From Scenedesmus sp. ARA3 (Eukaryota; Chlorophyta; Chlorophyceae; Sphaeropleales; Scenedesmaceae), in the NCBI GenBank assembly GCA_004335835.1, contig RWJK01001840.1:86681-150680 (forward strand): a stretch of 64,000 nucleotides of DNA, given 5' to 3'. Of this stretch, positions 17,001 through 63,933 are shown piece after piece (within the stretch, counting starts at the first letter, position 1; the number at the start of each line of letters is the position of its first letter). Below the pieces are notes generated by a model. That model was not told where the DNA came from. It made no database searches and was given only the letters and a program-made list of their open reading frames with translations. The position numbers and the translations under genes are program-made.

Positions 17001-17003
17001 CGA

Positions 17004-17142: not shown

Positions 17143-17810
17143 ATGGCTTTCCATTGGAGCAGCAGGAAGCCCATGAGGGTCCTGATCACTGGTGCCGCAG
17201 GTGTGCCTAGGACTTCTGCTGTTGCGAAGCACGTGTGCAGCGCCGTTGGCCCTGGGCGATGCGAGCGGCGCTTTGAAACGTTTCTTACTGCGTTACAGGT
17301 CAGATCGGCTACGCCATAGTGGCCATGGCTGCCAATGGCGATATGCTGGGCCAGGACCAGCCTGTCATTCTGCACCTACTGGACATCGAGCCCGCAAAGC
17401 AAGCACTGCAGGGCGTGAAGATGGAACTGATGGATGCGGCATACCCTCTGCTTGTTGGTGAGCACTTTCAAGAAGCTGCAATGAGAGAGGATAGTTACAT
17501 GTGGGTCCGGCAATGCTTCTTCGTAAAGGCTGGGGGTGTCAGCAATGACCCATGCTGCTGCTGCGTCTGCTGGTAACCATCTAGTAACCAACACTCACTG
17601 AATGCTTGCAGCTCCCTGCAACCAATGCAACTGGAAGTCGTGCTGTATTCAGCATAACACTGCATAGATCGGTGTGATACGTGCTGAAACCTAGCCGCCC
17701 CTGCAGCTCCCTTGCTGGCCATGTACCACTCTCATGCCCGCATTGCTTCTCATCTGATGCCTGGGCCAAAACAGCCCCTGCCAAACTCTCCTGGCTGCTG
17801 TTGCTGCTGC

Positions 17811-17852
<42 letters not shown>

Positions 17853-17966
17853 ATGTTGTGCCCACCACTGACCTGCAGGAGGCCTGCGCGGGCGTGGAGG
17901 TGGCTGCGGTGGTGGGCGGCTTCCTCCAATGCCACACAACTCAACTCAACACCTCTTCCTCAACAC

Positions 17967-17997
<31 letters not shown>

Positions 17998-20429
17998 ATG
18001 TCGTGGCCACCACCGACCTGCAGGAGGCCTGCGCGGGCGTGGAGGTGGCGGTCATGGTGGGCGGCTTCCCTCGCAAAGCCGGCATGGAGCGCAAGGACGT
18101 CATGGCCAAGAACGTCAGCATCTATGCGCAGCAGGCGCGGGCCCTGGAGGCGCACGCCAGCAGGGACGTCAAGGTGAGGCACAAGCGAAGGATGAGTGAG
18201 TGTTTATGTGTGTGGCAGGTGGACGGGCGGCTGGGGCGCAGGGACAGACGTGAAGGTGAGGCTTGTGTGGGGCCTGTGGGAGGTGTCTGGGGGGGGGGGT
18301 ATGGGGCACATGCATAGCTGCTTGAAGCTGCTGCGGCGTGTGCAGGCGCATGCTACCATGCTCATTGGGCAATATCTTTTGGTCCGCACCTGTGTGCGCC
18401 ACGCTGGACAGTCAAGCAGTGATGTGCCGCCTGCTGGATGGTTGTAGCTCTCACACCAGCTGGCCTTGCTCAGCACGCTGCACCTCGTCAGGCTGCCCAG
18501 CTCACACCTGGTTTTGATTGCTGCTGCTGCTGCTGCTGCTGCCGCTGCTGCAGATCCTGGTGATTGCCAACCCCGCCAACACCAACGCGCTCATGCTCAA
18601 GGAGCACGCGCCGAGCATCCCCGCAGAGAACATCACAGCGCTCACACGTCTGGACCACAACAGGGCACTGGCACAGGTAGGCGCTGCTGCTGCTGTTGTT
18701 GTACCTGCTCAGTTGCTTGATTTGGGCGCCACAGCATCCGTCGGAGAGTGTATACGGACGCAGATGCATAGGTGCCCCTGCCCTGCTGTCCTGCTGACAT
18801 CATGCTTACAGCCTCCCACTGCTGTCCCTGCTGCCACTCTCTGCACTTGCCCCTGCAAACCGCACCATGCCCTTTTCTTTTGCTCATGCTCACAGCTGCA
18901 TTGTTGCACCTGCTGCTGTTCCCTGCTCCTGCACATCTGCTCTTGCGTCAGATCGCTGCACGCGCCGGCACACATGTGAGCAACGTGCGCAACGTGATCA
19001 TCTGGGGCAACCACTCCTCAACACAGTTCCCTGATGTCGCGCACGGCACTGTGGACGGCCGGCCCATCCGGGAGGTGCTGCGGGGTGAGGAGGACGCTGC
19101 CTGGCTGGACGGCGAGTTCGTGGAGACTGTCCAGCAGCGCGGCGCGGCTGTGATCAAGGTGAGTGGTCAACACTGTTGTTGACAGAGAGATTGCATGTGG
19201 ATGCATGCAAGCAGGCGTGTTGTGTGTATTAAGTCAGGCGCGACTGCAACAGGCGGTGTTGCTGGTATGTGTGTGCTGCTGCTGGTGCGCAGCAAGAGCG
19301 TGTTCATAGAGCTACAAGCAGTGTCAGAGGAAGGCGCAGCCTGGCGGGATGGACGCGAGTGCGTGGCGACAGTGCAGCAGCGCGGCGCTGCTGTGATCAA
19401 GGTGGGCTGGGTTGATATTTGTTGTATGTATCTCTGCATCTCTATGGCGTGTGCATTGTGTTCAGTAAGATTGTGCGAGTATGTGGAGACTGTGCAGCAG
19501 CGCGGCGCAGCCGTGATCAAGGTGGGTGTTGTGGTGGGGATTTGGGGCACTGGGACTGCTGCAGGCTTGAGCGTTGCCCCCAGGGCTCGAGTGCTGCCGC
19601 AGGTTCTTGCATGCTCTCACGCTCTCGCTCACGCACACGCCCTCGCAGCCAACAGAGACAGCATGCGTTTAACTTGTACAGCTTGTACATCCATGACTTG
19701 TCCCCCGCTACAGTCCACACATTGCAAAACATGTCACCGTGCACTTCTCACGCACGCAGTCTGTCCTTTCCTGTGTTGCTCTGCAGGCGCGTGGCCTATC
19801 ATCAGCGATGTCTGCCGCCAGCAGCGCATGTGACCACATCCACGACTGGTTCAACGGCACGGCCCCGGGCAAGTGGGTGTCCATGGGCGTGTATGGCGAC
19901 GGCAGCTACGGCCAGCCCGCCGGCCTCATCTACAGCTACCCAGTCACCTGCCAGCACGGCAAGTGGAAGATCGTGCAGGTGATTACTTGCTGTCTTTGCG
20001 CTTAACTGTGTTTGCCAGTTGTGTCAGCTGTCTACAGCTACCCAGTCACCTGCCAGCATGGCAAATGGAAGATCGTGCAGGTGGTTCAGCTATGAAATGA
20101 ATCTTTCACGAGCAGTTTGATCATGTTGTCTGTTGGTTTGGGTGAGGGTGAGCAGGTTTTCAGTTGCACGGCCAGCTTTGCCCAGTGCCTGGTGCAACAG
20201 CAGCTTTGAGGCAGCAGTCGCAACGGCAGCGGCAGCTCCTTCAGCAGCCTCGGCTGGCCTCACCCATTTGTGTGCTGCTGCTGCTGCTGCTGCTGTCGCT
20301 GCTTGACTGCAGGGCCTGGAGATCGACTCGCACTGCGCAGCCAAGCTGAAGGCGTCTGCAGATGAGCTGCTGGAGGAGAGGGAGCTGGCCCTGGCCTGCA
20401 TCAGCGAGGCAGCAGCAGCAGCACAGTGA
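17143..20429 (+). CDS. MDH: Cytosolic NAD-dependent malate dehydrogenase
   Basis: Seven exons: 17143-17200, 17299-17457, 17998-18173, 18554-18676, 18952-19158, 19787-19978, 20313-20429. They join in phase to give 343 aa, near the usual 330-340. The enzyme interconverts malate and oxaloacetate with NAD. The Rossmann motif GAAGQIG is at 17-23; LLDIEP ends the second strand with an Asp, as in NAD-specific cytosolic enzymes. The substrate loop contains RKAGMERKD, and the catalytic His193 lies in [10 protein letters not shown]. There is no transit peptide, and the C-terminus has no peroxisomal signal, so I place it in the cytosol. An extra 72-base copy of the exon 3 start lies upstream of the real exon (17853), and copies of the ends of exons 5, 6 and 7 lie downstream. 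The model uses the copies that keep the protein collinear with plant enzymes. Confidence 0.95.
17853..17924 (+). repeat. Acceptor-side copy of MDH exon 3
   Basis: It repeats the first 72 bases of exon 3 ([17 protein letters not shown] to VGGF) after its own (CTG)n-CCAG tract. It then runs into intron sequence without a donor, while the copy at 17998 continues into RKAGMERKD. It is an alternative acceptor at most, and more likely a non-functional duplicate. Confidence 0.85.
19325..19521 (+). repeat. Two donor-side copies of MDH exon 5
   Basis: Copies at about 19325-19401 and 19477-19521 repeat the exon 5 end ([10 protein letters not shown]) and each is followed by GTGGG, a usable donor. The first has several substitutions; the second is shorter. 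Both lie in the intron after the authentic donor at 19159. Confidence 0.85.
20029..20080 (+). repeat. Donor-side copy of MDH exon 6
   Basis: It repeats [16 protein letters not shown] plus a GT donor, 50 bases after the authentic exon 6 end, with only a few silent changes. It looks recent. Confidence 0.85.
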
Positions 20430-20497
20430 TGACGCTATATTCAATAGTATTGTTGGTAGTGGCGCTTGCCTGCATGCATGCGGGTAAATGCGGCACA

Positions 20498-20776
20498 GTG
20501 AGGGAGCTGGCCCTGGCCTGCATCAGCGAGGCGGCAGCAGCAGCAGCACGGTAGTTTGCCAAGCTTGGTGCACGTTATTTTTGCCTTTTTGCTGCTCGTG
20601 CTGCTGGTGAGCTGCTGGCAGAGAGGGAGCTGGTGCTGGCATGCATCAGCGAGGCGGCAGCAGCAGCACAGTGATGACGCTATATTTAAAAGTTTTGTTG
20701 GTGGTGGCGCTGGCATGCATGAGGCAGCGAAGCAGCGCGAGAGCTGGCGCTGGCATGCATCCGCAAGGCAGCATGG
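20498..20776 (+). repeat. Three decayed copies of the MDH terminal exon
   Basis: Copies at about 20498-20552, 20609-20740 and 20737-20776 repeat [13 protein letters not shown]. The middle one also repeats the stop codon and the following UTR block (GTGATGACGCTATATT). The duplicated unit therefore crossed the end of the coding sequence. Confidence 0.8.
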
Positions 20777-22426: not shown

Positions 22427-22435
22427 CATATAATT
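22427..22435 (+). promoter_or_regulatory. Possible TATA box of the lipase gene
   Basis: CATATAATT lies about 110 bases upstream of the lipase ATG. Weak positional evidence only. Confidence 0.25.
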
Positions 22436-22543
22436 GCCGCAGTACTACCAAACATTCCGTCAATGCATTCGCCTTCGTGGCAGCAGTTTTGACTTCGGGG
22501 AGCCGTTCAACAGCGAACAGCAGTAGCAGTCAAGGTTGTTGGG

Positions 22544-25500
22544 ATGCATCGGCCTGGACTAGCCGTCTGGCTGTGCCTGCTAGTGCTAGTCGGGACATTT
22601 GGTCCCATAGGTAAGCAATTGTGGCCTTCTGCTGCAGCAGCTGACTCCGGTACAAGGCCGGCCTGCTGCTGGCTGTGCTGCATGGAGGTCCTCTGCAGCA
22701 GCACTGCAGCAATGATACCCCGCTGTCTTGACCAGCACTTGCTGCCTCCTGCAACTAGCATGTTGCATCACGTTACAGCATCCTAGCATCCTCTTCTCCA
22801 GTTTTTTTAGCAACCTTGAAGTGCAATTGACCCCTTATCAAGAACATCACTGTCTGCTTTCTCTGTTGTCCTTGCCTTGTAATGATGCCTTGCAGGAATA
22901 CATGCCAGCCCCATAGCAGCAGCAGCAGCAGCACTAGGCCGGCGTGCCCTGCTGGCCCCAGGCAGCCTCGACGCCACGTCAGCAGCCTGTGCCAGTTTGA
23001 ATTCAAAGCAGCTGCTGGTCAACGGCTACTTCAACAAGGTTGACCTGTCAGACATGCACAACATGCTGCTGATGGCCAGCCTGGCAAATGACGTGTACCC
23101 ATGGAGCAAGCAGTACAACATCCCGCTGCTGGATGTGGCAGACGGCCTGGATAAAGAACAGGTGCGGCAGCTGCATTCTTGTAGATGCATGATCCTATGA
23201 GTACATATGCGTACATGCAGCTGTGGTGTTGTGTGGCATTGGCTAAGGCAGCAGCAGCCAGCCGGTGGATGTGGCAGATGGCCTGGATACAGAACAGGTG
23301 GGGTGTTGGCCGCATGCAGGTGTTTTGTGTGTTGCAACACTCGTGTCGTTGTGCATGCGATGTGTACCCCTGGAGCAAAGCAGTACAACATCCCGCTGCT
23401 GGATGTGGCAGACGGCCTGGATAAAGGACAGGTGGGGCTGTTGGCCGCATGCATGTGTTTCGCAACACCTTGATCAATGTGCATGCAATGTTAGTGTGCA
23501 AGCAGTACAACATCCCGCTGCTGGATGTGGCAGATGGCATCCTTAAAGAAGAGGTGCGGCTGTTGGCCGCATGCATGTTTGCAACACTTCATTCATTGTG
23601 CATGCAGTGTGCATGCAGTGGTAGCTCGAGTGTGCAAGCAGTACAACATCCCGCTGCTGGATGTGGCAATGGCTTGGTTAGAGAACAGGTGGGGCTGCTG
23701 GCCCCATGCATGTGTTTTGCAACACATTTTTTCTTGTACATGAAATGTTGGCTCGAGTGTGCAAGCAGTACATCCCGCTGCTGGATGAGGCAGATGACTT
23801 GGGTAAACAACAGGTGCGGCTGTTGGCCGCACGCATGTTTGCAACACTTCATTCATTGTGCATGCAATGTTGGCTCGAGTGTGCAAGCAGTACAACATGC
23901 TGCTGCTGGATGTGGCAGATGACTTGGACACAGAACAGGTGCGGCGGCTGAGGGCATCATGACGCATGTGTTTAAGTATATGTGTATGAGCAACTGATGC
24001 TGGCGTAGTGATGCCATACTAATGTGGTGGTAGCTGAGGTAGCAGCGGCCAACAAGGCTGGCTAGCTGTTGCGCGTAGCAGTGCAGCAGCAAGCTGGCTG
24101 TTGAGCAGCAGCGGCTTGCAGCAAGGCAGGCTTGCTTGCGCAGCAGCACCAAGCCTTGCTTGTGCAGCAGCTTGTGCCACAGCGCCATGTTGCTTGCATG
24201 CTCATCTTCATCAACAGGACCACATGTCAACACATGTGTTGGGTGGTCAGCCGCGCTTGCGCAATCAGCTGCTTACGCTCACCTGCTGCTGCTGCTGCTG
24301 CCGCAGGCTGCGCGCTTTGAGCGCCTGTTTGGCGAGAAGTACAGGCAGCTGGGTGCGACCAGCATCCAGTTCCTGGACTTCTACGAGACGCCACACATCC
24401 CCATCACGGGCGCAGCGGCACACGCGGTGGTTCTGAGTACACCCAGCGACGTGTTCGTGGCCATCAGGTGGGTGAAGTGTCATGCCGCAGCTGTCATGTT
24501 GAGATTGTGTCATGTCTCTTCGTATTGTGCCATAAGTTGGTGCTGAGCACACCCAGCGACGTGTTTGTGGCCTGAAGGTTGGTGTAGCGTCATGCTGGCG
24601 GCTGTAGATACATGTTTTTGACTCGTGTCATACATGTCAAATCGTGTCATGCGGTTAATGCTGGGCACGCCATCAACCTGTTTGTGGCCATCAGGTGCGC
24701 GCATTGCAATGCTGGCAGCTGTTTGTTGGACTCTTGAAACCCGATTCACTGAAATGCTCCGCCGGCAGCACTGAAATATGCTTTGCACAGCAGACGCTTG
24801 AAAGGCAGCAGGTGGCAAAGCCTGGCCTATGTCCTCAGCAGCAACCACCCATGTCCATGCACAGCACAATTCGGCACTGGCCCCTCTCCCCTGCGTTTGC
24901 ATTGCCTTGTCAACAACGCACTGCTCATATTGGATGCTTTCCTCTTTATCATTCTGCAGGGGCACAGCAGATGCCGGTCAGGTGCGCATCACCGGACACT
25001 ATTACACCGAAAAATGGACGATCTACAACACAACTCTGGACGTGTACTATGCCCCCTACGCCTCCTTTGTGGGTGGGCTGTGGCCGCAGCTGCTGCCGGC
25101 TGTCAAGCGCGCAACAGCCGCAACTGACAGCCCGAGCACCGCAAATATCTACATCACGGGACACAGCTTGGGCGCTGCGTCAGCATACATGGCGGGCCTG
25201 TCCCTGAAGGAGGCTGGGTTTAGGGTGTCTGGGGTTTATGCGTTTGACCCATACCATGTCGGCTACAGCTGCGAGGCGGGGCAGGCGTGCTGGGTGTCGC
25301 TGTATGAGCAGCACCTTGGAGACGTGACCTACTCCTGGTGGAACAACCAAGACCCGGTGAGGCGCCGCAGCAACCTTGTTTGGCCTAAGTCGCGCCTGCC
25401 ACTCTGTTTGGTCTGCACAGTGCAAGTATCCACATGCAGTTGCAGCGCACGCCAAGCGCCCCGCCTTTGTGCTATGCGTCTGCTGCTCCTCCCTGATGCT

Positions 25501-26065
25501 GAGCATGACCTTCACCCTGACGCCAGCCCTGCAACCGCATCCTACGGACACCGCATATCCTGCAGTCGCTGCTCATGTCCCTTTGATTGTGTTGCTGATG
25601 CCTGCCTTCCGCTGCAATGCCACTGCAACACCTCCTTCACCCCCGCAGATCCCTCAGCTGCTGGACTTCCACTTTCAGGGCACGCCCAGCGGCAGCCGCT
25701 TCGGCCACGTGCACGCTGACGGCCGCAACTGGATGCGCATTGTGGGCGACAAGTGCCTCTCAGCACACAACAACCGCCTCATGGAAGCCTGCCCGCCAGA
25801 AATCGATGCAGCAGATGGCGCTGCAGATGGCGCCTGCCCCAGCAAGTTTGGGGACCACCTGCCTTGGAAGATCCTGATGCGCATCGCACACTGCGCACTG
25901 CTGCAGCCGCAGCAGCAGCAGCAGCAGCCGCCGCCTGCCAATGCGCGGCTGGCATCGCGGCTGCAGCAGCAGCAGCGCTCGAAGGAGGGGCTGCGGCTGA
26001 GTGCTTGCTCGAGCTCCAGCGTATGGAACATCTTGCTGGGGCTGCCACCGCCCGGCAGGAAGTGA
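22544..26065 (+). CDS. Secreted class-3 (fungal-type) lipase
   Basis: Five exons: 22544-22610, 22896-23161, 24307-24467, 24960-25356, 25649-26065, phase-consistent, 435 aa. The N-terminus (HRPGLAVWLCLLVLVGTFG) is a signal peptide, so the enzyme should enter the secretory pathway. The lipase-3 fold is shown by VFVAIRGT (oxyanion strand, near 160-167), the nucleophile elbow GHSLG with Ser234, a FDPYHVG block in the place of the usual FGxPRVG, and NNQDPIP with the probable catalytic Asp296; the catalytic His is likely in RFGHVHADG. Class-3 lipases hydrolyse acylglycerols; the exact substrate is unknown. The C-terminus carries poly-Gln and a basic Ser-rich tail. Exons 2, 3 and 5 have intronic or downstream partial copies. 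The start is the only ATG that yields the signal peptide in the correct phase. Confidence 0.9.
23162..23940 (+). repeat. Six tandem donor-side copies of lipase exon 2
   Basis: A repeat with a period of about 120-135 bases spans the exon 2 end and its donor. Exon-like segments lie at 23264-23297 (partial), 23381-23431, 23503-23553, 23639-23688, 23766-23813 and 23888-23938. Each encodes a version of QYNIPLLDVADGLDKEQ and is followed by GTGCGG or GTGGGG. Three are exactly 51 bases and one is 48, so four of five full copies keep frame. The linkers share GGCCGCATGCATGTTTGCAA-like sequence. Confidence 0.92.
24542..24694 (+). repeat. Two donor-side copies of lipase exon 3
   Basis: Segments 24542-24577 and 24661-24694 repeat the end of exon 3 (STPSDVFVAIR) before a GT. 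The first has lost the frame by a TGA; the second has an NLFVAIR variant. Confidence 0.75.
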
Positions 26066-26216
26066 GGCAACGCACAGGCGGGTGCAGATGTGGGTGCGTT
26101 GCTGTGGTCGGTTCTAGGCAGACGGTGTTGTGCTGCTTCCAGGCAGTGGTGTGCAGGCTATGCTGTGCGCCTGCCTGCCTAGTGTATCGGTGCCAGGCAT
26201 GGTGTGTTCATCCAGC

Positions 26217-26546
26217 TGCAGCAGCAGCAGCAGCGCTCGAAGGAGGGGCTGCGGCTGAGTGCCGGTTCAAGCTCTAGCGTTTAGGACATCCTGCTGGGGC
26301 TGCCGCCACCCGGCAGGAAGTGATGTTATTTGAGTACTTCAGTGCTGGAGGAGAGCGCGGGTGGCGGCGGGGAGGGGTGGTGTAGCTGTGGCCTAGCCTG
26401 CTTCCTCCTGGTGCCAGTTACAGAACACACATGTCAGCTGCCGTTGAGCAGGGAGTGAGGGCTTCAGCACGACACTGCTTATGCGCAGCTTGCATATGGG
26501 CAGCAGCAGGGCTGCAGCGAGGGGCTGCCACTCGGCAAGCAGTGGA
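26217..26546 (+). repeat. Copies of the lipase terminal exon
   Basis: 26217-26323 repeats the last 100 or so coding bases through the TGA (RSKEGLRLSA to LLGLPPPGRK), with an internal TAG. A second, much decayed copy lies near 26499-26546. Confidence 0.8.
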
Positions 26547-26580
26547 GCTGAGGCGCTGCTGCTGGGGACGTCGCTGTGGC

Positions 26581-26585
26581 TGTAA
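26581..26585 (+). terminator. Possible polyadenylation signal (TGTAA)
   Basis: TGTAA is the usual chlorophycean polyadenylation signal. This one lies about 515 bases past the lipase stop, beyond the tail copies. The motif is short and can occur by chance. Confidence 0.25.
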
Positions 26586-27564: not shown

Positions 27565-27694
27565 GGAGTGTGACTGCAGTGACGCACGTTTGACCGAGAA
27601 GTGTGACTTCACTGTTGCTGGCTCGATGGACGAGTGTTACTGCAGTGACGCACACTTGATTGAGAAACGTGACTCCGGTGGTTGCTCGCTGGAC
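27565..27694 (+). repeat. Tandem duplication, about 65 bp x 2
   Basis: Two units begin GAGTGTxACTGCAGTGACGC and end in CTGGAC. They keep an open frame but have no recognisable product. Confidence 0.7.
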
Positions 27695-30956: not shown

Positions 30957-31392
30957 ATGGCTTTCGTGCTGAGCTCGAAGGGCCTGCAGGCCTCCACAGG
31001 TGCTTGTTCTACGCTATCAAGGCTAATGCGAGCCTGTACATGCCCACACACTGCGTTCTGTTGGACGCCGAAGTGCCATTAGAGGGCTGTTTACCGACCT
31101 GGAGAGCACCATGCAGCTGCTACCCTTCGCAGCCATGTTTCATTTGCAAATAGTACTTCCTTGTCCAGCCGCGATCTGCTGCACCGCGACACGTGGCAGC
31201 AGTAGCAGCAGCAGCTGTCAGCAGCATGCGCTGAGGGCCTGGCTAGCAGCTCAAACTGCGATCGCTGCTGCGTTGACTCGCAGGCAAGCCATGTGCTGGA
31301 GCTTCCAGGCAGCAGGTCAAGGTCAATGCTGTGGTGGCACCACCCACCGCTGCTCGCTCCCCTGCCAGCACTGGCTCGGTGAGTGAGCCGCT

Positions 31393-31424
<32 letters not shown>

Positions 31425-36484: not shown

Positions 36485-36522
<38 letters not shown>

Positions 36523-42820: not shown

Positions 42821-42851
<31 letters not shown>

Positions 42852-44718: not shown

Positions 44719-44772
<54 letters not shown>

Positions 44773-47700: not shown

Positions 47701-48408
47701 GCGCGCGGTCTACTGCAAGGTGCGCATTCTGTGAATATGTTTTGTGAATAGTTTCAGAAGCACTGGCGTATTGCGCTGGGTGAGGGTTGGTGGGTGCAGT
47801 GCAAGCTGGCCAAGGTCTGCAGCGAGGAGCGCGCGGTCTACTGCAAGGTGGGTATTGTTTGCGTTGTGCGCTGTGTGTCTGTGTTGACGGATGTGTGCAT
47901 GTGTGAAGGTGCTGGGGCTGTTGGCTCAAGCCCAAGCTGGCCAAGGTCTGCAGCGAGGAGGGTGCCGTGTACTGCAAGGTGCGGCGTGTATGCGTGACGC
48001 ACTGTGTATGCGTCGACTGAGGGATTGCATGGGCGGGGTGAATGGGGGTGTGCCGGGTGCAGTGCAAGCTGGCCAAGGTCTGCAGCGAGGAGGCGCGGTG
48101 TACTGCAAGGTGCGCATTGTGCCAACAGCTGTAACAGCAGTGGATTTTGTTGTGCACTGGCAGGTGGGTGCCGCTCCAGCTAGGAGTGTGCGAAGTACTG
48201 CAGGGTGCACTGTGTACGCGGTGACAGAAGGATTGTGTCTGTGTGTGGGNNNNNNNGGGGGTGAAGTGCCAAGGCCTGGCTGCAACAATGCATTCCGCCC
48301 GTGGCGCACTTGGTGAGCCTGCTGCTGCTGCTGCTGCTTTCATACTGCAGGATGTCAAGCCTGGCAAGGCGTGCGTGATCAGGTGCCTGGTGGAGGCCAA
48401 TCACTGAG

Positions 48409-48441
<33 letters not shown>

Positions 48442-50606
48442 TTCATACCGCAGGATGTGAAGCCTGGCAAGGCGCGCGTCATCACATGCCTGGTGGAGGC
48501 CATGGCGCAGCCCAACTCACTGAGATTGCTGCTGCTTTCATACCACATAATGTGAAGCCTGACAGGGCGTGCGTGATCAGCTGCGTGCGGGAGACTGATT
48601 GCTGCGCCTGCCGCTGCTGCTGCTGCTGCTGCTTTCATTCCGCAGGATGTGAAGCCTGGCAAGGCGCGCGTGATCACCTGCCTGGTGGAGGCCATGGCGC
48701 AGCCCAACTTTGGCGCGGAGTGCCGCGCGGAGCTGCAGCAGCGGCAGAGCGCCGTGAAGAACGACTACAGGTTGGTGATGCAAGATTGGCTGCTGGTGCT
48801 GTTGCTTGCGGATTACATGGACTCACTTCAGTGTGAACGCTGCATGCCTGCTGTGTTGCTTGCCCACGCTGAGATACGACATCGGCGCCCGGAACGGTTG
48901 CCGTCAGGACATCACTATATCAGTTGCCACTACAGACTGGTTGCTATCATCCTCGCCATCAACATCATCATGCTGGATGTGATGCCGCAGGTACGACATT
49001 GGCGTCATGACGGGCTGCCGTGACGACATCGAGGCGTTCTGCGCGGAGGAGAAGACCAAGCTGCGCGGCAACGCCACTGTGCTGCGCTGCCTGGTGGCCA
49101 ACTTCGACAAGACAGGTGCGCAAGAGCATGTGCTCGACTGTTTTTGTGTTGCTAGCGCTCCCGCCAGCAGCTGCTGGGACGTTGGCTCGCAGCCACGGTG
49201 GTGGGCTGGCTGGTGGCCAACTTTGACAAGACAGGTGCGCATGGTGCTGTGTGTTCTGTGCGGCTGGGCGAGCAGTGTGCACTGGCGCTTCAAGGCTCTG
49301 TGTGTGGCAGCGTGACAGCACGAGTTTTGGGGCTGTTGTTGCATGCGGCTGACACTGCTGCTGGCGGGCAGCACCTCTTTTCATTTACAGTGCTGATGCT
49401 GCTGCAGCTGGGTGCTGATTCTCCTATTTGTTTTACTGGGTACGTCCTGCCAGGCGTTGGTAATGTTTTGCAGTGTGCTTCGCGTTGGGTACTATACGCC
49501 AGACTACTCATTGCTGCTGCTGCTGCTGCCGCTGCTGCAGGCGAGTCGTGCCAGGCTGAGATGAGCCGCGCGGTGCGCTTTGCGCTGTGGGACTACACCG
49601 CGGGCCAGGCGCTGACGCGGGAGTGTGACGCTGACGTGGACGCCTTCTGCCCCAAGGTGGGTCGAGGTTTAAATTTTATGCGAATAGGTTGTCTTCTGTA
49701 TTCATCAAGTTGGGCAGGGATTTGGTGTAACTTGACAAATGAAACCTGCCGGGCAGCATGTGTATAGCCTAGTCGCGCAGACGCAGCTGACGCGGGAGTG
49801 CGATGCTGACGTGGACGCCTTCTGCCCCAAGGTGCGTCAGATGAGTCAAACAATTTGAATCTTCGGCCCTGCTGGCATCACGTGTACAGCCTAGTCATGC
49901 GGCAGCAGCGGATGGGGGTGTGACGCTGATGTGGATGCACTCGGCTCCAAGGTGTGCTCATGTGTGGGCATGCCGCTGCGCCAAAACAATTTTTTACTGC
50001 TTGATTTGAGCGGTTCGCAATGTTGGCTTGTCCCTGTAGCACAAAGTGCGTCACGCATGAGCGGTGCAACCGCATTCAATTGGTGATCAATTCAATTCAA
50101 TTGCCAAATAATCAAGTCAACTGCCAATCAATTCGAGCTAGTTGCCTCCTGCGATCATCTTGCTTACCTTTCGTGCTGTGTTGTCGTGCTCGCTGCTGCT
50201 GCTGCTGCAGGGTGCCAAGGCGCGCCCGGGCGGTATGTTCACAATCGGCGCTGTAGGACGCTGCCTAAGCAAGGCCTTAGTACAGGCCAAGTCCCTGGCA
50301 CCCAAATGCAGGCAGCTGGTGCTTGTTGCAGCGCCTAAGGACAGCCGAGTGTACCTGCGGTACCCTGAGAGCACCAGTGCGCTAATCACAAAGATAGCAG
50401 AGCTGCAGCGGGCAGCAGGGCTTGAGGCGGTGCTGGTGGACCCTTATCGAAGGGATGGAGGCAGTGTGACGGTGACTGGCTGGGTGGCGCTTGCGTGCAT
50501 TGTGAGTTTGATTTTGGTGAGTGTGGGGGGTGTGGTGATGCTGGCGCGGCGGCTGAGTGGCGCGGACAAGCCGCACACGCACTATGTGAAGAGCGGCGAC
50601 GCTTGA
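40186..50606 (+). CDS. GLG1: GLG1-like Cys-rich Golgi/secretory type I membrane protein
   Basis: Nineteen exons: 40186-40369, 40460-40573, 40667-40753, 40940-41024, 41276-41336, 41537-41641, 42155-42319, 43101-43195, 43438-43590, 44095-44206, 44775-44858, 45299-45418, 45799-45996, 46471-46618, 47303-47463, 48646-48770, 48991-49115, 49541-49656, 50211-50606. All are phase-consistent, giving 877 aa (human GLG1 is near 1180). A signal peptide (LLAATVLLLLCLLASSASA) is followed by repeated GLG1-type Cys modules of the form CxxDxxxxC...P(G)xxRVxxCL, for example ACKADIGSLC, CRGDVDKYCKDVQPG and CDADVDAFCPK. A single membrane helix (about 837-858) precedes a short basic tail ending YVKSGDA. Animal GLG1 binds growth factors and selectin in the Golgi; the algal ligand is unknown. 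Most introns hold partial exon copies, and a 7-N gap lies in one. Confidence 0.92.
42469..42513 (+). repeat. Copy of GLG1 exon 7 end with lost donor
   Basis: It repeats CKGVEPGHxRVQ but is followed by CTGCG instead of GTGCG, so the donor is broken. A fragment of an earlier part of the same exon (GAGAAGGAGGCTGC) follows at about 42557. Confidence 0.75.
42737..43048 (+). repeat. Three acceptor-side copies of GLG1 exon 8
   Basis: Copies start at 42737, 42865 and 42993, each after TTGCAG, and repeat ECLEDAMDKAGF. The second and third share a different continuation (LAGIPV then TAG) and are near-identical over more than 80 bases, so they arose from one another. The authentic exon is at 43101. Confidence 0.9.
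43665..43708 (+). repeat. Donor-side copy of GLG1 exon 9
   Basis: Repeats CLQQFKEELxSDACR with a GTTATG donor, 75 bases after the real exon end. Confidence 0.85.
44723..44772 (+). repeat. (CTG)n tract forming an acceptor
   Basis: About 17 pure CTG units run directly into GCAG and exon 11 of the GLG1-like gene. It is the longest of the CTG acceptor tracts in this gene. Confidence 0.9.
45200..45243 (+). repeat. Acceptor-side copy of GLG1 exon 12
   Basis: After a (CTG)n-CTTAG acceptor it repeats VKMAEDIDFKYPTR exactly at the protein level, then diverges; the full exon is at 45299. Confidence 0.88.
45669..45741 (+). repeat. Acceptor-side copy of GLG1 exon 13
   Basis: Repeats SRLDDEDMSPECKAEVVRD after CTGCAG, then runs to a TAA. 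The full exon begins at 45799. Confidence 0.88.
46057..46311 (+). repeat. Three donor-side copies of GLG1 exon 13
   Basis: Copies ending at 46103, 46210 and 46311 repeat DKEGQMCGGVVLQCLQ, each followed by a GT donor; the last has a TAG in place of CAG. The period is about 105 bases. Confidence 0.9.
46668..46830 (+). repeat. Donor-side copies of GLG1 exon 14
   Basis: 46668-46735 repeats AEACRGDVDKYCKDVQP with its donor; a fragment (DKYCK) follows near 46811. Confidence 0.82.
47161..47234 (+). repeat. Acceptor-side copy of GLG1 exon 15
   Basis: After ACGTGCAG it repeats GEGRVHTCLRHSMNFLSPAC, 142 bases before the authentic exon at 47303. Confidence 0.9.
47464..48109 (+). repeat. Five tandem donor-side copies of GLG1 exon 15
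   Basis: Period about 128 bases. Exon-like segments 47544-47591, 47672-47719 and 47800-47847 are each exactly 48 bases, bounded by GGTGCAG and GTGCGC or GTGGGT, and encode CKLAKVCSEERxVYCK. Two more diverged copies end at 47978 and 48109; the last has lost one base. Confidence 0.93.
48250..48256. other. Assembly gap (7 N)
   Basis: Seven undetermined bases in the intron after GLG1 exon 15, just beyond the 128-bp repeat array. More repeat units may be missing here. Confidence 1.
48351..48590 (+). repeat. Three acceptor-side copies of GLG1 exon 16
   Basis: Copies start at about 48351, 48454 and 48547; the first two follow (CTG)n then TTTCATACxGCAG. They repeat DVKPGKARVITCLVEA with increasing change in the third. 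The real exon is at 48646. Confidence 0.88.
49205..49234 (+). repeat. Donor-side copy of GLG1 exon 17
   Basis: Repeats LVANFDKT with a GTGCGC donor about 90 bases after the authentic one. Confidence 0.8.
49786..49952 (+). repeat. Donor-side copies of GLG1 exon 18
   Basis: 49786-49833 repeats LTRECDADVDAFCPK with GTGCGT; a decayed version ends near 49952 (CDADVDALGSK). Confidence 0.85.
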
Positions 50607-53518: not shown

Positions 53519-53918
53519 TTAGAAGTCCTGGCGTGAGGTGGCGGTGATAGGCACGCCGTGGCTGCCACTGCTTGCCATCTCTTTCCGACGGGCAGCCGCC
53601 TTTGCCTCTGCTGCAGCCGCGACCTTCTGTGCATGACGCTTCTTGCTGATAATGCAGAAGGCCAGCAGACCTCCAATAAGCAGCAGACCACCCACCACCC
53701 CAGCCACAACGCCGCCGATGAGTGCGGCCTTGCTGTTGGATGTGCGTGTGTCAATGCGCTCGTCGTATGTGCGCAGCATGTTGGCGCGGTTGGAGTAGTC
53801 AAGGGAGCACATCTGAGCCATGTTGACGGGGCACAGGCGCGTGTCAGGTGCGCTGATGTTGCGCACCCACATGCAGGTGCTGTTGCTGAGCACGGTCCAG
53901 GGCTCTGAGGACACGTCT

Positions 53919-53953
<35 letters not shown>

Positions 53954-54634
53954 CAAGGGTGAGGTGAGCTCTCAGCTGATGCGCTACAGCAGGGTGCTAC
54001 CTAAGATTATACCTGCAAGTTGGTGAGCATGTGTACGGTTGCTCTGCCTGCCAGGCTGCCGTGCAAAACAACATAACTGCTGCTGGTCCGTCTGCCGTCC
54101 ACGAGGCACTCTCTGATTTAAATCCAGGTAAGCAGCATCAAACCAACGAGCTGCACCTCCAGCAGCCACGCACCTCCATACACCGGCGTGTCTGGCGCTT
54201 GCACGGCAATGCTCAAGGAGCGCCTGACACTGTGCATTCACATCACAACAACACCAAAATCTTCACAACTCTAACAGCCGTGCAGCGCACCTCCATACAC
54301 CGGCGTGTCTGGCACCTTCATGGCGATGCTCTGCGTGTCATAGTCCCCAAAAGGCAGCAGCAGCAGGTCCTCAGCCGTGCGCTGCGTGTTGAACACCAGC
54401 ATATCTGCCATGCTCCTGTGGCCCGGGCTGAGTGGGGTGGACCCATCTTCCTGAACGACCTGGTCTGTGATCATGCCGCTGTTGCGTGTGGGCGTTCCGC
54501 TGCCCCAGATTGCATTGCGCATTGAGACAACAGGTGTGCCATAGTAGCTTGCCAGGGCAGCGTATTGGGGGGCCTCAGGGGTGAGGTAGAAGGGAGTGGA
54601 GCCGTTGCCCATGCCGTTGACCATTGACTGTAAC

Positions 54635-54672
<38 letters not shown>

Positions 54673-54754
54673 GTCAGCTCCAAGTCATTCCAAGTCGGCA
54701 CCAAACAGACAGTTCAGTACAACCCCTGTTACTAGCAGGGGGGTGAGCCCTGCC

Positions 54755-54792
<38 letters not shown>

Positions 54793-56136
54793 GGTTCTGG
54801 CCACCTGCCAAGCTAGCCCGATGTACAGCACCCCTTGCCGCCCTTGTAACTGCTGTTACACCCCTGCTTTTGCGCAAACACTCCTTTCACCCAGCCACTC
54901 CGGCTGCCAGCAGGGTTCTGGCAGGGTTCAAAAAACGCTCCTCACCTGCGTCAAGATCACAACCCTCCCTCTCAAAACCCTCCCATACCCTGCAAAACCC
55001 TCCTCACCTGTGTCAAGATCAGCGCGGGCGTCTTTTCCGCGCCCAGGATGCCCCGCAGCAGAATCTCGTACGCCTTTGCATTGTGGCCATCGATCAGGCT
55101 CGCATCCATGCCCACTCCATCATTCGCAGTCATCTCAAGCAGCACCAGATCAGCATCCTTTGGCAGGTAGCTGCTGAGGCACTCCGCCACCACAGCAGAT
55201 GGCGCAATACCTGCGCTGCTGCGCACAGGCTCGACGCGCGCATTGGGAAAGGCCCGCTTGAGGTACTTCACATACAGCGCAAAGAAGTCGTCACTTCCGG
55301 GGCTCGATGCGTCGCTGCCGTTTGTTGCCACGCCGCCAATGGCCACGATTTTGATGGGGTTGCCGCGCTGCAGGTCGTGCACCACGCGGCGCATGCGGGC
55401 ATTGCCGGCCTGGTATACGTTTGAGGACTGGATCTGCTTCAACGGTGTGGCGAAGGAGTAGTCAAGCACGCTGCGCAGCGTGTCGCCCGTGATCTGTTGT
55501 TACAAGTGTTACATATGCGGCGGGAAATGACAAGTGACAGTGGCGGCAGTGCGTCAGAGGGAGGTCAGGGCAGCAGCGGCTGTCTGCTGAAGCATGAATG
55601 CAGGAGGCTGCGTGCACAAATGCTACTAGGCTAACCCTCCACAGGTGCTGCTTGCTGTTGCTGCTGCCGCTGCTGCGCGTGAGCTACTTGACCAGCAATG
55701 TTCAATATCGGCTGCTGCTGGATTGATCATGCCAGGCAATGAGGGTGCTGCTGTGCTGCCGCCACATCCGCTGCATGAGCTCTGCCAACTGCTGCACTGC
55801 TTGGTTTGCCAGTAGCTGCAGGGCTACTGACTCAAGTGGCAAAGCATCTGGCTCGCCAACATGCTCAAAGCTGCTGCAGGACTGCTCTTGCAGCATCACT
55901 TGTCAGGGTGGCCAAGGTAACCACTGCTGCTGCCAATGTGTCGGTTCCCTGCACATTCACCAGGACGACACCAGCCAACTGACCTGACTTCCGATTCTGA
56001 TGTTCTGCCGCTGCATGTTGTAAGTCGCCCATTCCTTGCTGATTGCGTTTGGCGACTGAGGTGCAGCGCTTATGCTGAGGATGCTTGCGGCCAGCACCAG
56101 ACAAAACGTCACGCGGGCAGCACCAGCAGGAGCCAT
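53519..56136 (-). CDS. SGNH-hydrolase-like type I membrane protein lacking catalytic residues
   Basis: Four minus-strand exons: 55984-56136, 55008-55493, 54291-54627, 53519-53916, phase-consistent, 457 aa. Signal peptide (VTFCLVLAASILSISA), an SGNH-like domain (about 95-300), then a membrane helix (AALIGGVVAGVVGGLLLIGGLL) and a basic Ala-rich tail ending TSRQDF. It is clearly paralogous to the gene at 56831-60229, and indexes align. In block I, GGVATNG replaces GGSISTG, so the catalytic Ser is Val106. Block III keeps Asn175 (TAND). In block V, DGSTP replaces DRLHP, so the catalytic His is Thr277. I infer a pseudoenzyme, perhaps a binding or scaffold protein at the cell surface or in the endomembrane. 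The start at 56136 is chosen because the next upstream Met adds a charged leader before the signal peptide. Confidence 0.85.
54173..54214 (-). repeat. Donor-side copy of exon 3 (minus gene)
   Basis: On the minus strand it repeats PDTPVYG with a GTGCG donor, downstream of the authentic exon 3 end at 54291. Confidence 0.8.
54636..54671 (-). repeat. Triplet tract before an acceptor (minus gene)
   Basis: (CAG)n on the plus strand is (CTG)n on the coding strand, just upstream of the exon 3 acceptor at 54628. A second tract of opposite orientation lies at 54757-54793. Confidence 0.85.
54939..54958 (-). repeat. Donor-side copy of exon 2 (minus gene)
   Basis: The last bases of exon 2 (ILTQ) and the GTGAGGA donor recur about 70 bases into the intron. 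Confidence 0.65.
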
Positions 56137-56830: not shown

Positions 56831-59800
56831 ATGGCGCGCTGCTGCTCGCGCTGCGCAGCAGCTCTCGTGCTGCTCTTGGCATGCGTCAGCCTAGTTAAGT
56901 CCCAGGAGCCAGCAGAGTTCGCCGCATACCGTAGCAACGTGGCGTCCATGTTTGTGCCTGGTGCCGACGCCACAATTGGCCAGACGCTGGGCACCGTATT
57001 GAATGGATGGGAGTACACGCTTCCGTTGGAGTTTCTTCGCAAGGGGCAGGCCTACATGGGATCCAGCACTCGGCTCAGGCGTGTCATGAACGACCTCATG
57101 GCAGGTACGCCTTACCAGCAGCTGTTTTGAACAGGATGCCGCATCATCCTGCGGTCAAGCAGCGCCTGTGCATGAGCTGAATGTTGATTGAAGCCTCAGC
57201 ATGGCTGCTGCTGTGCTAGGGCTGCGCATGCAGAACTGTGCTGTGCAATGCCCACATGCGCATGTGCATGTGCCAGGAACAGCAACTTGATTGCATCAAT
57301 CTTTGGCTTACTGTGTGCAAGCTGCTGTAACAGCTGCATGCCAAGCAAACTGCTGCTCAGGCATTGACAGCACCCCTGCAAAACCTTGATGAATGGCTCA
57401 GGAGCGATCGGGACAGCCAGCTAGCAGCACATGCACTGCTGCCACCGGCGGCATCAGCAGTCTGCGCAGCAAATGAAAGTGACGCTGCACATGCTGTGCA
57501 GCCATGATTCTCACAGTGCCTGGCTGCAGCATCCGCTGACACCTACTGCTGCATTGCTGCTGCTGCTGCTGCTGCTGCGCCTATGTCGCGCTTGCAGGCA
57601 AGCCCGTGTCTGTCACCCGTGCTCGGCGGCAGCATCCTTTGACACTTGCTGCTGCATTCCTGCTGCTGCTGCTGCTGCTGCTACGCCTCTGTCGCCCTTG
57701 CAGGCAAACCCTTGTCTGTTACGGTGCTCAGTGGCAGCATCATCTGCTGCTGCTGCTGCTGACTTGCAGGCAAGCCCGTGTCTGTGACAGTGCTTGGCGG
57801 CAGCATCCCCTGACACCTGCTGCCGCATTGCTGCTGCTGCTGCTGCTGACTTGCAGGCAAGCCCGTGTCTGTGACAGTGCTCGGCGGCAGCATCAGCACG
57901 GGCGCAGTCGCCTCCCGCAAGCAGGCTTCCACAGACCCCAATGACCTCTGGAGTCTGGTCCGCATCTACATGCAGAAGAACCTTGACGAGTCCATCACCT
58001 TCTCAAACAACGCGCGCAGCGCCACTCGCAGCTACATCACCAGCCTGTGCCTGGAGAAGTTCCTGGATGACACGTCTGACCTCGTGTTCGTGGAGTTCAT
58101 CGCAAACGATGGCAGCGAGATGGATGTGAGCTACGTGGACAACCAGAAGGCGAGGTTTTTCGAGCGCTTCCTGCGCAACATCATGCGCAAGCCCAAGGCG
58201 CCCGCAGTGGTGATGATGCAGGTGGGACAGCTGGCTTGGGTTGGGCTGCTTGTCAGTTGCTGGGTTGGGGCCAGGGGCCAGGCGCTGGGTCGGGTGTGAC
58301 TGCTAGTGGTTGTGTTTGTTACGGTGGAGGTGGCGCAGAATGGAGCACAGCAACAGCATGCGCACGCCCAAGGCGATGATGATGCTGGAGCGTGGTTTGC
58401 TAGAGCGTGGGTTGCTGGTCCTGATGGTTGTGATGCTGGTGCGCCAGGTGTGCAAAGCAGCAGAGTGCATGTAGGGCAGGTGCAGTGTTGTCGCCAGCAC
58501 AGCAGCAGATACGTGCTGACAGTTGATACGGCTGTTACTGCACCCAATAGCTGTCTGAACCTGCTGCTGCTGCTGCTGTTGTTGCTGCCTTTCTTTTCAC
58601 CGCAGTTCATGGTGAACGAGATGGCCTTCCCGCCTGAAGGTCAGGACGGCAAGCCCAAGCGTGGCTACATGGCCACCCCCGAGGACACATACTACAACCT
58701 GGCGCAGTACTACGACATTCCCACGCTGTCTTTCAGGTGAGAACTTGATCATACACAATGCATATGGTACAGGCACAATAAGAGTGAGAAGTGAGGACAC
58801 TTGCTATAACCTGGCTCAGTACTACGACATCCCCACACTATCTTTCAGGTGCGGCTGCTGATACATTTCTGCCTTTACATTTTGTCATCCAGTAGCGGCT
58901 GAAAATAGCCCTCCAAGAACACGTTCCCATGCAAAACTCTGTTGTTGAGCTGTTATGAATCTGCTGTGCTGCATGTCATCTATGTGTGCAGGTATGCCAC
59001 CTACCTGCCGGGCAAGACTGGGGTGCTCCCCGGCTTCAATTGAGCCACGCTCATGGGCCCTGACACATACATATTCTTATGTGCTTGGTTTGCTGTGCTT
59101 GTGTAGCTGGTGCCCGCAGGTGCCCAAGCAGCACAGCCCCCCACGACCACCTTCCCATGCAACACTTTGTTACTAATGTGCTGTGCTGCAACTCATCTAT
59201 GTGCGCAGATACGCCACCTACCAGCTAGGCGAGACTGGCGTGATCCCTGGCTTCGATTGGGCCACCCTGATGGGCCCTGACCGCCTGCACCCAGCAGACA
59301 AGGGCCACAAAGTGGCAGCTGACCTCGTGGTCTACCTGCTGCAGCAAACCCTGATCGGCCTGCAGCTGCATCCAGCCGGCGCTGCGGAAGCCGCCTCAAG
59401 AACTGCACCCCTGCCTCCACCAATGTATGACGGTAATGAGGTCGGAACGTCGACGCCAATCTGCGCAATGGGCAAGAACATGACAGAGTTCATTGTGAGC
59501 GACGCAGGCTGGAGGCAGATGCAGAACACGGATAACCCCAGGTACCCCACAGATGGCTACGAGACAACCAGCCCAGGGCAGCCTCTGAGCTTCCAGGTGG
59601 ACACTACAAGCCCAGATGGCCGGCCTGTGACGGTGTTCTTCCTGTACACGCGCGCGCAGAGCGGCATTGGCACGGCGCAGATCACGTGAGTGTTGTGATA
59701 GTGAGGAACAGCACAGTATCTTTGTAGGGCAGCATGAGCAGCAGCAGCAGCAGCCCTAGTACAGCAAAGCAGCCGCGGCCGTGCCTGCAGGAGCTTGCCA

Positions 59801-60229
59801 ATAGTGACAGCGTGTCTCGTGCATGGGTTGCCAGCGGGTTATGCCTGCAATCAGCCTGCAACCAGCTGCAAGTAGCTGCCTCAGCACCAAGCACATGTGC
59901 CCTGACAAGGCTCTGCCGCCCGCTGCTGCTGCCTCTGCGCTGCCTCTTGCCTCACCTCCTGCAGCTGCGGCAATGGCTGCAAGTGTGGCCCTGAGTACCT
60001 GGACGGCTCCCTCACCTACAACCAAGTCGTCACTTTCATCGACAGCATCACTCCCACTGCGGCACCAGCTTGCCAGATCAATGTGGCTCTTGCATCAAAC
60101 AGCACAGCAGGCTCAAAGCTGCGTGTTTCCGGCATTGCTGTCACGAGTGATCCAGGCAGCCTCAACACAGCACGCATCGGGGAGGAGAAGTACATGGCGT
60201 GGCTGCTGGGGGAGAACTGGGCGGCCTAA
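56831..60229 (+). CDS. Secreted SGNH/GDSL-type hydrolase
   Basis: Five exons: 56831-57104, 57857-58221, 58606-58736, 59209-59685, 59965-60229, phase-consistent, 503 aa. Signal peptide (CAAALVLLLACVSLVKS). SGNH blocks: GGSISTG with nucleophile Ser103 (block I), FIAND with Asn175 (block III), and DRLHPADKGH with Asp281/His284 (block V). These enzymes remove acyl groups such as acetyl from sugars or lipids; the substrate is unknown. The C-terminal third (from about 370) contains a Cys cluster (CGNGCKCG) and no membrane helix, unlike the paralogue across the shared promoter. Four copies of the exon 2 start occur in tandem (57597, 57704, 57770, 57857); only the last continues correctly. The ATG has a CACCATGG context. 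Confidence 0.9.
57597..57856 (+). repeat. Three acceptor-side copies of SGNH exon 2
   Basis: Copies start at 57597, 57704 and 57770 after TTGCAG and repeat GKPVSVTVLGGSI, the catalytic Ser block. (CTG)n tracts separate them. The third differs from the real exon by only a couple of bases over 40. Confidence 0.92.
58793..59070 (+). repeat. Copies of SGNH exon 3 end and exon 4 start
   Basis: 58793-58848 repeats EDTxYNLAQYYDIPTLSFR with a donor; 58992-59070 repeats RYATYxxGxTGVxPGF before an in-frame TGA. They are adjacent, so a donor copy and an acceptor copy share one intron. Confidence 0.88.
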
Positions 60230-60338
60230 ATATGACATGTCGTAACATGTTATTTTAGGTGTTATATGACACGTTATATGTGGCATGTGGCATTGGTGTT
60301 TGGGGGGCCACAGCTCCCCTCACAGCTGCCGGCGCTGT

Positions 60339-60343
60339 TGTAA
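60339..60343 (+). terminator. Possible polyadenylation signal of the SGNH gene (TGTAA)
   Basis: TGTAA 110 bases after the stop, the best placed such motif in the window. Confidence 0.4.
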
Positions 60344-63264: not shown

Positions 63265-63376
63265 CTACCAGCTGCCCAGCTGGTCTGCTGCTGACAGCAG
63301 CTCAGGCACCTGCTGCTGCTGCTGCTGCTGCCCTACCAGCTGCCCAGCTGGTCTGCTGCTGACAGCAGCTCAGGCA

Positions 63377-63433
<57 letters not shown>

Positions 63434-63477
63434 CTACCAGCTGCCCAGCTGGTCTGCTGTTGACAGCAGCTCAGGCA

Positions 63478-63480
<3 letters not shown>
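63265..63480 (-). repeat. Three copies of the CAP-gene terminal exon end
   Basis: Minus-strand copies at 63434-63480, 63333-63379 and 63265-63309 repeat LLSSADQLGSW and its TAG stop, separated by (CAG)n tracts of growing length. Confidence 0.9.
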
Positions 63481-63516
<36 letters not shown>

Positions 63517-63933
63517 CTACCAGCTGCCCAGCTGGTCTGCTGACGACAGCAGCTTGGGCGACTCGAAGGGCTTCACATTAGCCAGGAAGGACGAGGCGCT
63601 GCCGGTGTTGCCGGGAGGGGCATACCTGCACACACCAGGTACATACACGGTGACGAGTCAGCGGATACAAGTCAGCCGTGATAAGTCCAGGGGGACAAGT
63701 CAGGAATGACTGTTCAGGGTTGGCTAGTCAGGGTTGACGTGTATGACAACGTGTTTGGTATCTGTGAACATGGTGCTCACCTGCACAGCACCAGTGTGCC
63801 GACGATGCCGCTGCTGCAGGCCTGTGCCGCGCAGCCCACTGCAAATGTGCTGCGCCACACAATTTGGCTGAAAGGGCGCGAGGCCTCCATGTCCTGAGGG
63901 TTGGCATAGTTGTAGTTGTTGCCCGTGCCGTAC
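63517..63933 (-). CDS. CAP/PR-1-like (SCP domain) protein, 3' end
   Basis: Two minus-strand exons, 63781-63933 and 63517-63625, join in phase and stop at TAG 63517-63519. The upstream part lies beyond the window, past a (CTG)n intron. Residues FSQIVWRSTFAVGCA and the later VLCRYAPPGN are the hallmark end of the CAP domain (PR-1, CRISP, allergen 5): the HxQxVW-like strand and the CxYxPxGN block. CAP proteins are usually secreted and some bind sterols; function here is unknown. The TAG comes soon after PPGN, giving a short tail (SSFLANVKPFESPKLLSSADQ). Confidence 0.85.

Follow-up and report, generated by a model that had tools for sequence, protein, structure and literature searches.

The DNA stretch analyzed here (the window) comprises 64,000 nucleotides of the green alga Scenedesmus sp. 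ARA3 (assembly GCA_004335835.1, contig RWJK01001840.1, positions 86,681 to 150,680) and carries seven genes for which exon models were built by eye and by script, namely MDH, a class-3 lipase gene, LeuC, a GLG1-like gene, two SGNH-like genes and a last gene represented by one exon (Table 1). The edges of their exons recur, together with the adjacent splice signals, as partial copies in the neighbouring introns. An initial annotation of the window had counted more than 45 such copies, had regarded them as a systematic mode of intron growth or a stock of alternative splice sites, and had stated that their breakpoints always include the junction and never the exon middle alone. The copying itself is confirmed by a census in which each exon was compared with its own gene, with targets outside exons and E ≤ 1e-4. 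It returned 62 partial exon copies in the seven genes, all beside their source exon: 36 span a donor and 20 an acceptor, four lie at or near a stop codon (three in MDH, one in the lipase gene) and two near an edge. At least one junction copy was found at 29 exon edges (18 donors and 11 acceptors, in a set of 47 introns and one single exon), and 24 of the 47 introns bear copies. The splice junction is included in 56 of the 62 copies and therefore usually, not always; the four stop-codon copies and four intergenic repeat pairs indicate that duplication is also possible where splicing plays no part. None of the 62 covers an exon middle alone, as had been stated, which says little because selection and geometry lead to the same expectation.

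Gene models and exon-edge copies

All 47 introns in the six complete genes run from GT to CAG, with a mean length of 469 base pairs (bp). The MDH exons, once spliced, encode a protein whose best match, OEZ86_004218 of Tetradesmus obliquus, is 100% identical over 343 amino acids, so that the alga belongs to this species or is very closely related to it. The GLG1 model was checked against the proteins of Scenedesmus sp. NREL 46B-D3 (85% identical), a transcriptome-labelled relative and Raphidocelis, and was corrected from these relatives by dropping one false exon of 72 bp and cutting exon 1 by 54 bp; no copy falls in either removed stretch. The copy census, the donor and acceptor position tallies, the splice-score matrix and the gene-finder training predate this correction, the latter two having kept the uncorrected model, while the intron-length regression uses the corrected one. 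For one relative the alignment has a gap of five residues near 43,195-43,438, at an exon boundary where the transcriptome-labelled relative agrees with the model. The GLG1 exons flanking copies align with the proteins of the relatives without any insertion matching a copy, which is in keeping with an intronic nature of the copies. The models of the lipase, LeuC and both SGNH genes rest on open frames and Pfam.

Table 1. Genes of the window and copies of their exon edges or coding ends (window positions)
Feature	Position	Strand	Remarks
MDH gene	17143..20429	+	7 exons: 17143-17200, 17299-17457, 17998-18173, 18554-18676, 18952-19158, 19787-19978, 20313-20429
Acceptor-side copy, MDH exon 3	17853..17924	+	
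Two donor-side copies, MDH exon 5	19327-19401, 19475-19521	+	
Donor-side copy, MDH exon 6	20031..20080	+	48/50 exon bases identical; spacer without similarity
Three copies of MDH coding end around or near stop codon	20500..20789	+	3' flank; match runs on into flank
Class-3 lipase gene	22544..26065	+	5 exons; Pfam Lipase_3
Six donor-side copies (array), lipase exon 2	23252..23938	+	inner spacers alignable; copies look neutral
Two donor-side copies, lipase exon 3	24538..24694	+	
Copy of lipase coding end	26215..26323	+	109 bp; match stops at stop codon
LeuC gene (isopropylmalate dehydratase large subunit, aconitase family)	30957..39084	+	13 exons; Pfam Aconitase
Acceptor-side copy, LeuC exon 4	32342..32361	+	
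Donor-side copy, LeuC exon 6	33957..33990	+	
Three donor-side copies, LeuC exon 7	34514..34847	+	
Two donor-side copies, LeuC exon 8	35960..36139	+	first one 821 bp away
Four acceptor-side copies, LeuC exon 9	36266..36704	+	CTG tracts ahead of copies
Donor-side copy, LeuC exon 9	37248..37303	+	
Two donor-side copies, LeuC exon 12	38395..38562	+	first is near-edge in census, second under census cut-off
Acceptor-side copy, LeuC exon 13	38692..38777	+	86 bp; all 4 differences synonymous
GLG1-like gene (Cys-rich FGFR repeats)	40186..50606	+	19 exons after correction; Pfam Cys-rich repeats
Donor-side copy, GLG1 exon ending at 42319	42477..42512	+	
Three acceptor-side copies, GLG1 exon at 43101	42737..43037	+	
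Donor-side copy, GLG1 exon ending at 43590	43665..43708	+	
Acceptor-side copy, GLG1 exon at 45299	45200..45242	+	
Acceptor-side copy, GLG1 exon at 45799	45669..45727	+	4 differences, all synonymous
Three donor-side copies, GLG1 exon ending at 45996	46055..46311	+	
Donor-side copy, GLG1 exon ending at 46618	46663..46735	+	
Acceptor-side copy, GLG1 exon at 47303	47161..47233	+	
Five donor-side copies, GLG1 exon ending at 47463	47546..48109	+	first units ~97% alike across whole 128 bp (recent)
Three acceptor-side copies, GLG1 exon at 48646	48351..48593	+	
Donor-side copy, GLG1 exon ending at 49115	49192..49234	+	
Two donor-side copies, GLG1 exon ending at 49656	49786..49951	+	
SGNH-like gene 1	53519..56136	-	4 exons; no Pfam match
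Donor-side copy, SGNH1 exon 3	54174..54214	-	real edge 54291
SGNH-like gene 2	56831..60229	+	5 exons; Lipase_GDSL_2 just under its cut-off
Three acceptor-side copies, SGNH2 exon 2	57598..57807	+	
Donor-side copy, SGNH2 exon 3	58793..58848	+	49/56 bases identical; spacer without similarity
Acceptor-side copy, SGNH2 exon 4	58992..59064	+	
Exon of last gene (putative CAP gene)	63521-63625	-	
Two donor-side copies, exon 63521-63625	63337..63471	-	in CAG-rich array

The local character of the copying is also evident from a comparison of the window with itself, in which 72 of 75 repeat pairs lie within 6 kilobases (kb) of each other, all in direct orientation, and 3 are distant. The repeat scripts omit palindromes that match themselves. 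One such palindrome, absent from the pair list, is situated at 34850-35001 in LeuC intron 7; it is nearly perfect, and each arm measures about 74 bp. The sequence flanking the last of the exon 7 donor-side copies contains the start of its left arm, and to its right an inverted piece of the exon 7 edge seems to follow. CTG/CAG tracts are very common in the introns of the window, often right before acceptors and often inside acceptor-side units, where they may help slippage. A gap of seven N at 48251-48257 lies in the GLG1 intron with the longest arrays, and the array length there may be wrong. The first part of the window (1-17,143), with genes for an RRM protein and a kinase named by eye from their translations, holds a single local repeat pair, unlike the region from 17 to 60 kb.

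Size, placement and spread of the duplicated unit

The duplicated unit is about 120 bp long and arranged head to tail; on the donor side it consists of about 50 exonic and 70 intronic bp. Homology across the whole unit is visible in the arrays at lipase exon 2, at the GLG1 exons ending at 45996 and 47463 and at the exon of the last gene. In 287 kb, composed of the window and 24 other stretches of the genome (six of them on the same contig), 244 local pairs are direct and 2 inverted, self-matching palindromes being uncounted. Here, the spacing of nearest direct repeats peaks sharply at 90-159 bp, a range that includes 92 of 148 pairs, and shows a smaller second peak at about twice that distance. 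Planted repeats were detected in 2 of 45 cases at 40-59 bp, in 29 of 32 at 60-79 bp, in 37 of 38 at 80-99 bp and completely at 100-259 bp. Hence, the rarity of units of 60-90 bp and of more than 160 bp is not a detection limit.

Among 73 local pairs of the window, classified with a copy list to which six weaker copies had been added by hand, 59 connect an exon edge with noncoding DNA, nine connect two copies, four are intergenic and one is an exon-exon pair within the repeated GLG1 domains. Uniformly placed units of 120 bp would be 34% junction-bearing, 54% intron-only and 12% exon-only. The absence of coding-only repeats can be explained by the purging of protein damage and by the fact that a unit of this size touching an exon usually reaches its edge. 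In this respect, neutral tandem duplication followed by decay, with uniform units, removal of coding-only ones and edge copies that stay recognisable longer since their original is conserved, accounts for the pattern, as it does for the direct orientation, the whole-unit size and the existence of stop-codon and intergenic units. However, the same neutral process predicts that about 61% of the tolerated random units are intron-only, while no intron-only repeat in gene bodies was found among the 73 local pairs. With the 29 families taken as independent, the probability of finding none is 1.3e-12; it becomes 5e-8 on the assumption that edge copies remain detectable for twice as long. The overlap with the exon is also too uniform for neutral placement, with 50-53 bp and a standard deviation of 15-16 bp across the 29 families (Kolmogorov-Smirnov p 2e-4 to 4e-5), and 50 bp in the donor families alone (p 9e-4). 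The lack of intron-only pairs and the uniform exonic overlap together show that the units are centred on exon edges, at birth or through survival.

Intron length rises with the number of copies (r² 0.65). It equals 316 + 118 (±13) bp per copy for 46 of the 47 introns, when LeuC intron 8 is excluded on account of inserted DNA, and 306 + 137 (±13) bp per copy for all 47. The excluded intron harbours between exon 8 and its donor-side copies about 700 bp (35200-35930) that are unlike their surroundings with a GC content of 0.48 and are probably a later insertion. The mean intron measures 314 bp without copies (n=23, median 275), 435 bp with one (n=11) and 574 bp with two (n=6). Single-copy introns are longer than copy-free ones by 122 bp (95% interval 32-200), whereas their exon-derived part amounts to only 20-72 bp, indicating that the copies arose as complete units. 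These values also bear on the idea that template switching or reverse splicing, at a splice-like motif already present in the intron, copied no more than the tail or head of an exon. Such copying would explain why the similarity ends at the splice signal and the independence of position +4, but the 118-122 bp added per copy speak against insertion of the exon tail alone, the spacing is by eye similar in families with and without alignable spacers, and the stop-codon copies do not fit, which makes this origin very unlikely.

The introns of this sample thus owe their additional length chiefly to edge duplication, and the proposed systematic mode of intron growth is supported. The published mean intron of T. 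obliquus is 462 bp, compared with 230 bp in R. subcapitata, 302 bp in M. neglectum, 284 bp in C. zofingiensis and 270 bp in C. reinhardtii, according to the excerpts of the source (PMC5966456). Our copy-free baseline is close to the latter three values, and edge duplication could explain most of the excess in T. obliquus. The same comparison is relevant for the suspicion that the copies are assembly artefacts, i.e. divergent haplotypes or unmerged read overlaps joined in tandem. The unit length is near the length of short reads, the differences look allelic (151 of the 264 classified copy differences in the window are synonymous) and the assembly distributes 87 Mb over 1567 contigs. Nevertheless, such an artefact is very unlikely in view of arrays of four to seven regularly spaced, individually diverged copies and of intron lengths matching the T. 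obliquus mean, even if the latter possibly derives from the same or a similar assembly. Three DNA queries of the assembly, for which the best candidates were scored, revealed no allelic contig.

The duplication recurs elsewhere in the genome. We took 25 other stretches, seven of them on the contig of the window, and applied a home-made gene finder that reproduced 36 of 55 window exons exactly and over-predicts, so that these results are noisy; 20 stretches received a predicted gene and five none. Junction copies were found in 11 of the 20. Relative to predicted exons, 30 copies are at acceptors, 26 at donors, one at both, two at stop codons, four near edges and nine in the interior. A search with exon sequence only retrieved 32 donor copies, of which 24 have GT, and 27 acceptor copies, of which 25 have AG. 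Predicted introns gain 147 (±44) bp per copy over 352 bp when the 50 of 86 without small predicted exons inside are considered; the remaining 36 show no slope, and all 86 together give 72 ± 44 bp per copy. The spread is uneven, since among 19 other stretches three lack local direct pairs altogether and five contain a single one. In one stretch a kinase-like gene (assigned by eye) on the minus strand carries several copies of one exon edge parted by CAG tracts, and in another (5072-5983) donor-side copies follow at 246, 504 and 729 bp, roughly in steps of 245 bp, which corresponds to two of the usual units. A stretch of GLG1 matched other parts of the genome mostly over 26-54 bp of CTG tracts, with one match of 138 bp at 79% identity. 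One exact pattern each searched in viral and prokaryote collections gave no related DNA.

Preserved edges, lost spacers and possible explanations

Within the unit, the copied edge is preserved and the adjoining spacer is lost. In single-copy donor families the exon part is 88-97% identical, while six of nine show no spacer similarity between the real and the copied unit (p > 0.05 against shuffles) and in the other three only 9-25 spacer bases match, at the donor or out of register. The donor tally includes 38 copies, the 36 of the census and the two of LeuC exon 12. Differences from the originals number 1, 0, 4, 18, 1 and 14 at positions +1 to +6 and 10, 20, 12, 26, 19 and 19 at +7 to +12. Accordingly, +1, +2, +3 and +5 are kept, whereas +4, +6 and the positions beyond are largely randomised; averaged over 19 families, the changed fraction is 6% for the former four, 44% for +4 and +6, and 52% for +7 to +12. 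Among 22 acceptor copies (20 of the census plus LeuC 5 and GLG1 48991), AG is retained in 21, and positions from -4 outward differ in 32-64%. The exonic differences are distributed over the three codon positions as 54:60:151 in the window (62 copies) and elsewhere as 58:41:136 in the 57 junction copies or 112:77:223 in all 72 copies.

For a dead duplicate, signal positions are expected to change about half as often as free ones. Neutral duplication thus predicts at most a twofold contrast between conserved and free positions, far below the one observed, and is rather unlikely despite the recent arrays at GLG1 47463 and lipase exon 2, in which exon part and spacer have alike substitutions as it would predict. 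With signal positions hardly changed and free ones near saturation, the copies resemble edges that were working until recently or repeatedly. They would be preserved, for instance, if they functioned today as decoy splice sites, either to tune splicing or to trigger the decay of mis-spliced mRNA. In agreement with this possibility, copied donors score like real ones (mean 9.48 compared with 9.85 for all real donors), a level of the median copy that only 1.7% of 1441 intronic GT sites, copies included, reach, and the signal positions are preserved. Compared with its own original, the copied donor is weaker in 21, equal in 12 and stronger in 5 of 38 cases. However, use of the copied donor leads to a premature stop on read-through from the exon to the first copy in 14 of 16 cases, there is no partner site on the other side of the copies, stop-codon copies in 3' flanks cannot act as splicing decoys, and their presence in half of the introns would be a high density for a regulatory device. 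A present function is therefore improbable. The distance from exon to copied donor is a multiple of three in only 5 of 16 cases. Taken together with the stops and the missing second splice site, this makes productive alternative splicing by the copied donors, judged from the sequence, unlikely, and the idea of a stock of alternative splice sites as a coding device is not upheld. Mini-exons were rejected as well, because the inner edges of 34 donor copies, scored as acceptors, and those of 20 acceptor copies, scored as donors, did no better than random intron windows. In any case, the splice-site-like scores of copied edges are a warning for gene finders.

We regard tandem duplication of edge-centred units of about 120 bp, combined with exchange between the edge copies, as the best explanation and as probable on balance. 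A process active in many parts of the genome makes short head-to-tail duplications of this size, and the genic ones that persist are centred on exon edges. A unit at an edge would be tolerated, because splicing could still join the contiguous edge and the copy would merely lengthen the intron, while duplications inside coding sequence would be purged. Two edge copies would then offer about 50 bp of shared exon plus splice signal as a direct repeat for slippage, unequal exchange or conversion. Loss of a unit would turn a former copy into the working edge, and gain of a unit would turn the working edge into a copy. Only usable copies would survive such exchanges, with exon codons and splice signals intact, whereas the spacer, needed in no functional state, could drift freely. 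It is this contrast of hardly changed signals and nearly saturated free positions from which we infer the role-swapping step, and we take this step, in preference to a present function, as the probable force preserving the edges. The lipase copy at 26215-26323, ending at the stop codon, also fits exchange, since splicing plays no part there; the MDH end copies differ in that their match extends into the flank. It might even be possible, though we consider it doubtful, that the junctions themselves are the targets of duplication, with the unit set by the junction through chromatin or through breaks coupled to transcription or splicing, and that the copies represent spare edges whose working role jumps over generations, so that selection keeps sequence that is intronic at any one time.

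Several observations weigh against exchange between edge-centred units. Resampling of families leaves the excess of third-position differences borderline, with a ratio of 2.63 (95% interval 1.87-4.07, P(≤2) = 0.058), and it becomes firm only after post hoc removal of the two lipase families (3.26, 2.44-4.59); the lipase array looks neutral. A small population simulation without exchange gave codon ratios of 2.75 and 2.86 from polymorphism alone, hence a ratio above 2 is no proof of exchange, and none of the simulation settings tried reproduced the observed set of rates. The four-gamete test for exchange had only six informative site pairs, two of them with four gametes. For the 11 acceptor families taken by themselves, edge-centring does not reach significance (59 bp, p 0.11), and 8 of the 32 donor matches elsewhere lack GT, several of which are probably wrong frames or simple repeats. 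Moreover, indels are commoner in the spacers of neighbouring units, partly since the exon parts were trimmed to equal length, and spacers may decay faster by indels. Regarding substitutions, neighbouring units in four arrays have similar identities in exon part (0.87-0.96) and spacer (0.86-0.97); therefore intron DNA as such is not far more prone to substitution.

Should the copies indeed be interchangeable as edges, gene models overstate how fixed exon boundaries are, and selection can reach sequence that the present individual carries as intron.

Relation to known systems

Intron growth is usually ascribed to mobile elements or slow drift; here, it proceeds in whole steps of about 120 bp tied to exon edges. 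Introners are dispersed similar sequences that change intron content genome-wide. They share the genome-wide change of introns with the present case, in which, however, 72 of the 75 repeat pairs of the window are local and the three distant pairs do not amount to similar sequences at many unlinked introns. Minisatellites consist of head-to-tail units in arrays with inner units alike, a feature also found here, where in addition one unit holds a working exon edge.

Our literature search, with most subscription journals outside its range, returned isolated examples in which a tandem duplication touches splice sites, but no system of similar density or form. Intron gain by tandem duplication, as proposed by Rogers, likewise involves duplications that touch splice signals while splicing keeps the protein (PMC4974935, as excerpted). 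In that model a duplicated coding stretch with AGGT gives rise to a new intron, whereas here existing introns are lengthened and no new position was seen; the units straddle existing junctions, with one exon-exon pair among 73. In the potato RdRp gene, described in the same excerpts, the 3' end of an intron and the 5' end of the next exon were duplicated, giving a new intron (PMC4974935). The duplicated piece has the same layout as our acceptor-side copies, but it concerns one gene, compared with 29 edges in seven genes here, many of them with several copies. For Drosophila, the available passages report seven candidate introns from tandem duplications within coding sequence, the new introns being of duplication size (PMC2891723); the shared feature is the duplication of proto-splice sites within genes, while the Drosophila cases are new introns. 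Breaks with 3' overhangs can give rise to small tandem duplications through CST-Pol alpha or Pol theta (PMC8355091). This route yields small direct duplications without a mobile element, and the passages available from that source do not mention exon edges. Collectively, the direct orientation of local pairs (244 compared with 2), their adjacency and the addition of a whole unit with each copy (+118 bp) are those of tandem duplication.

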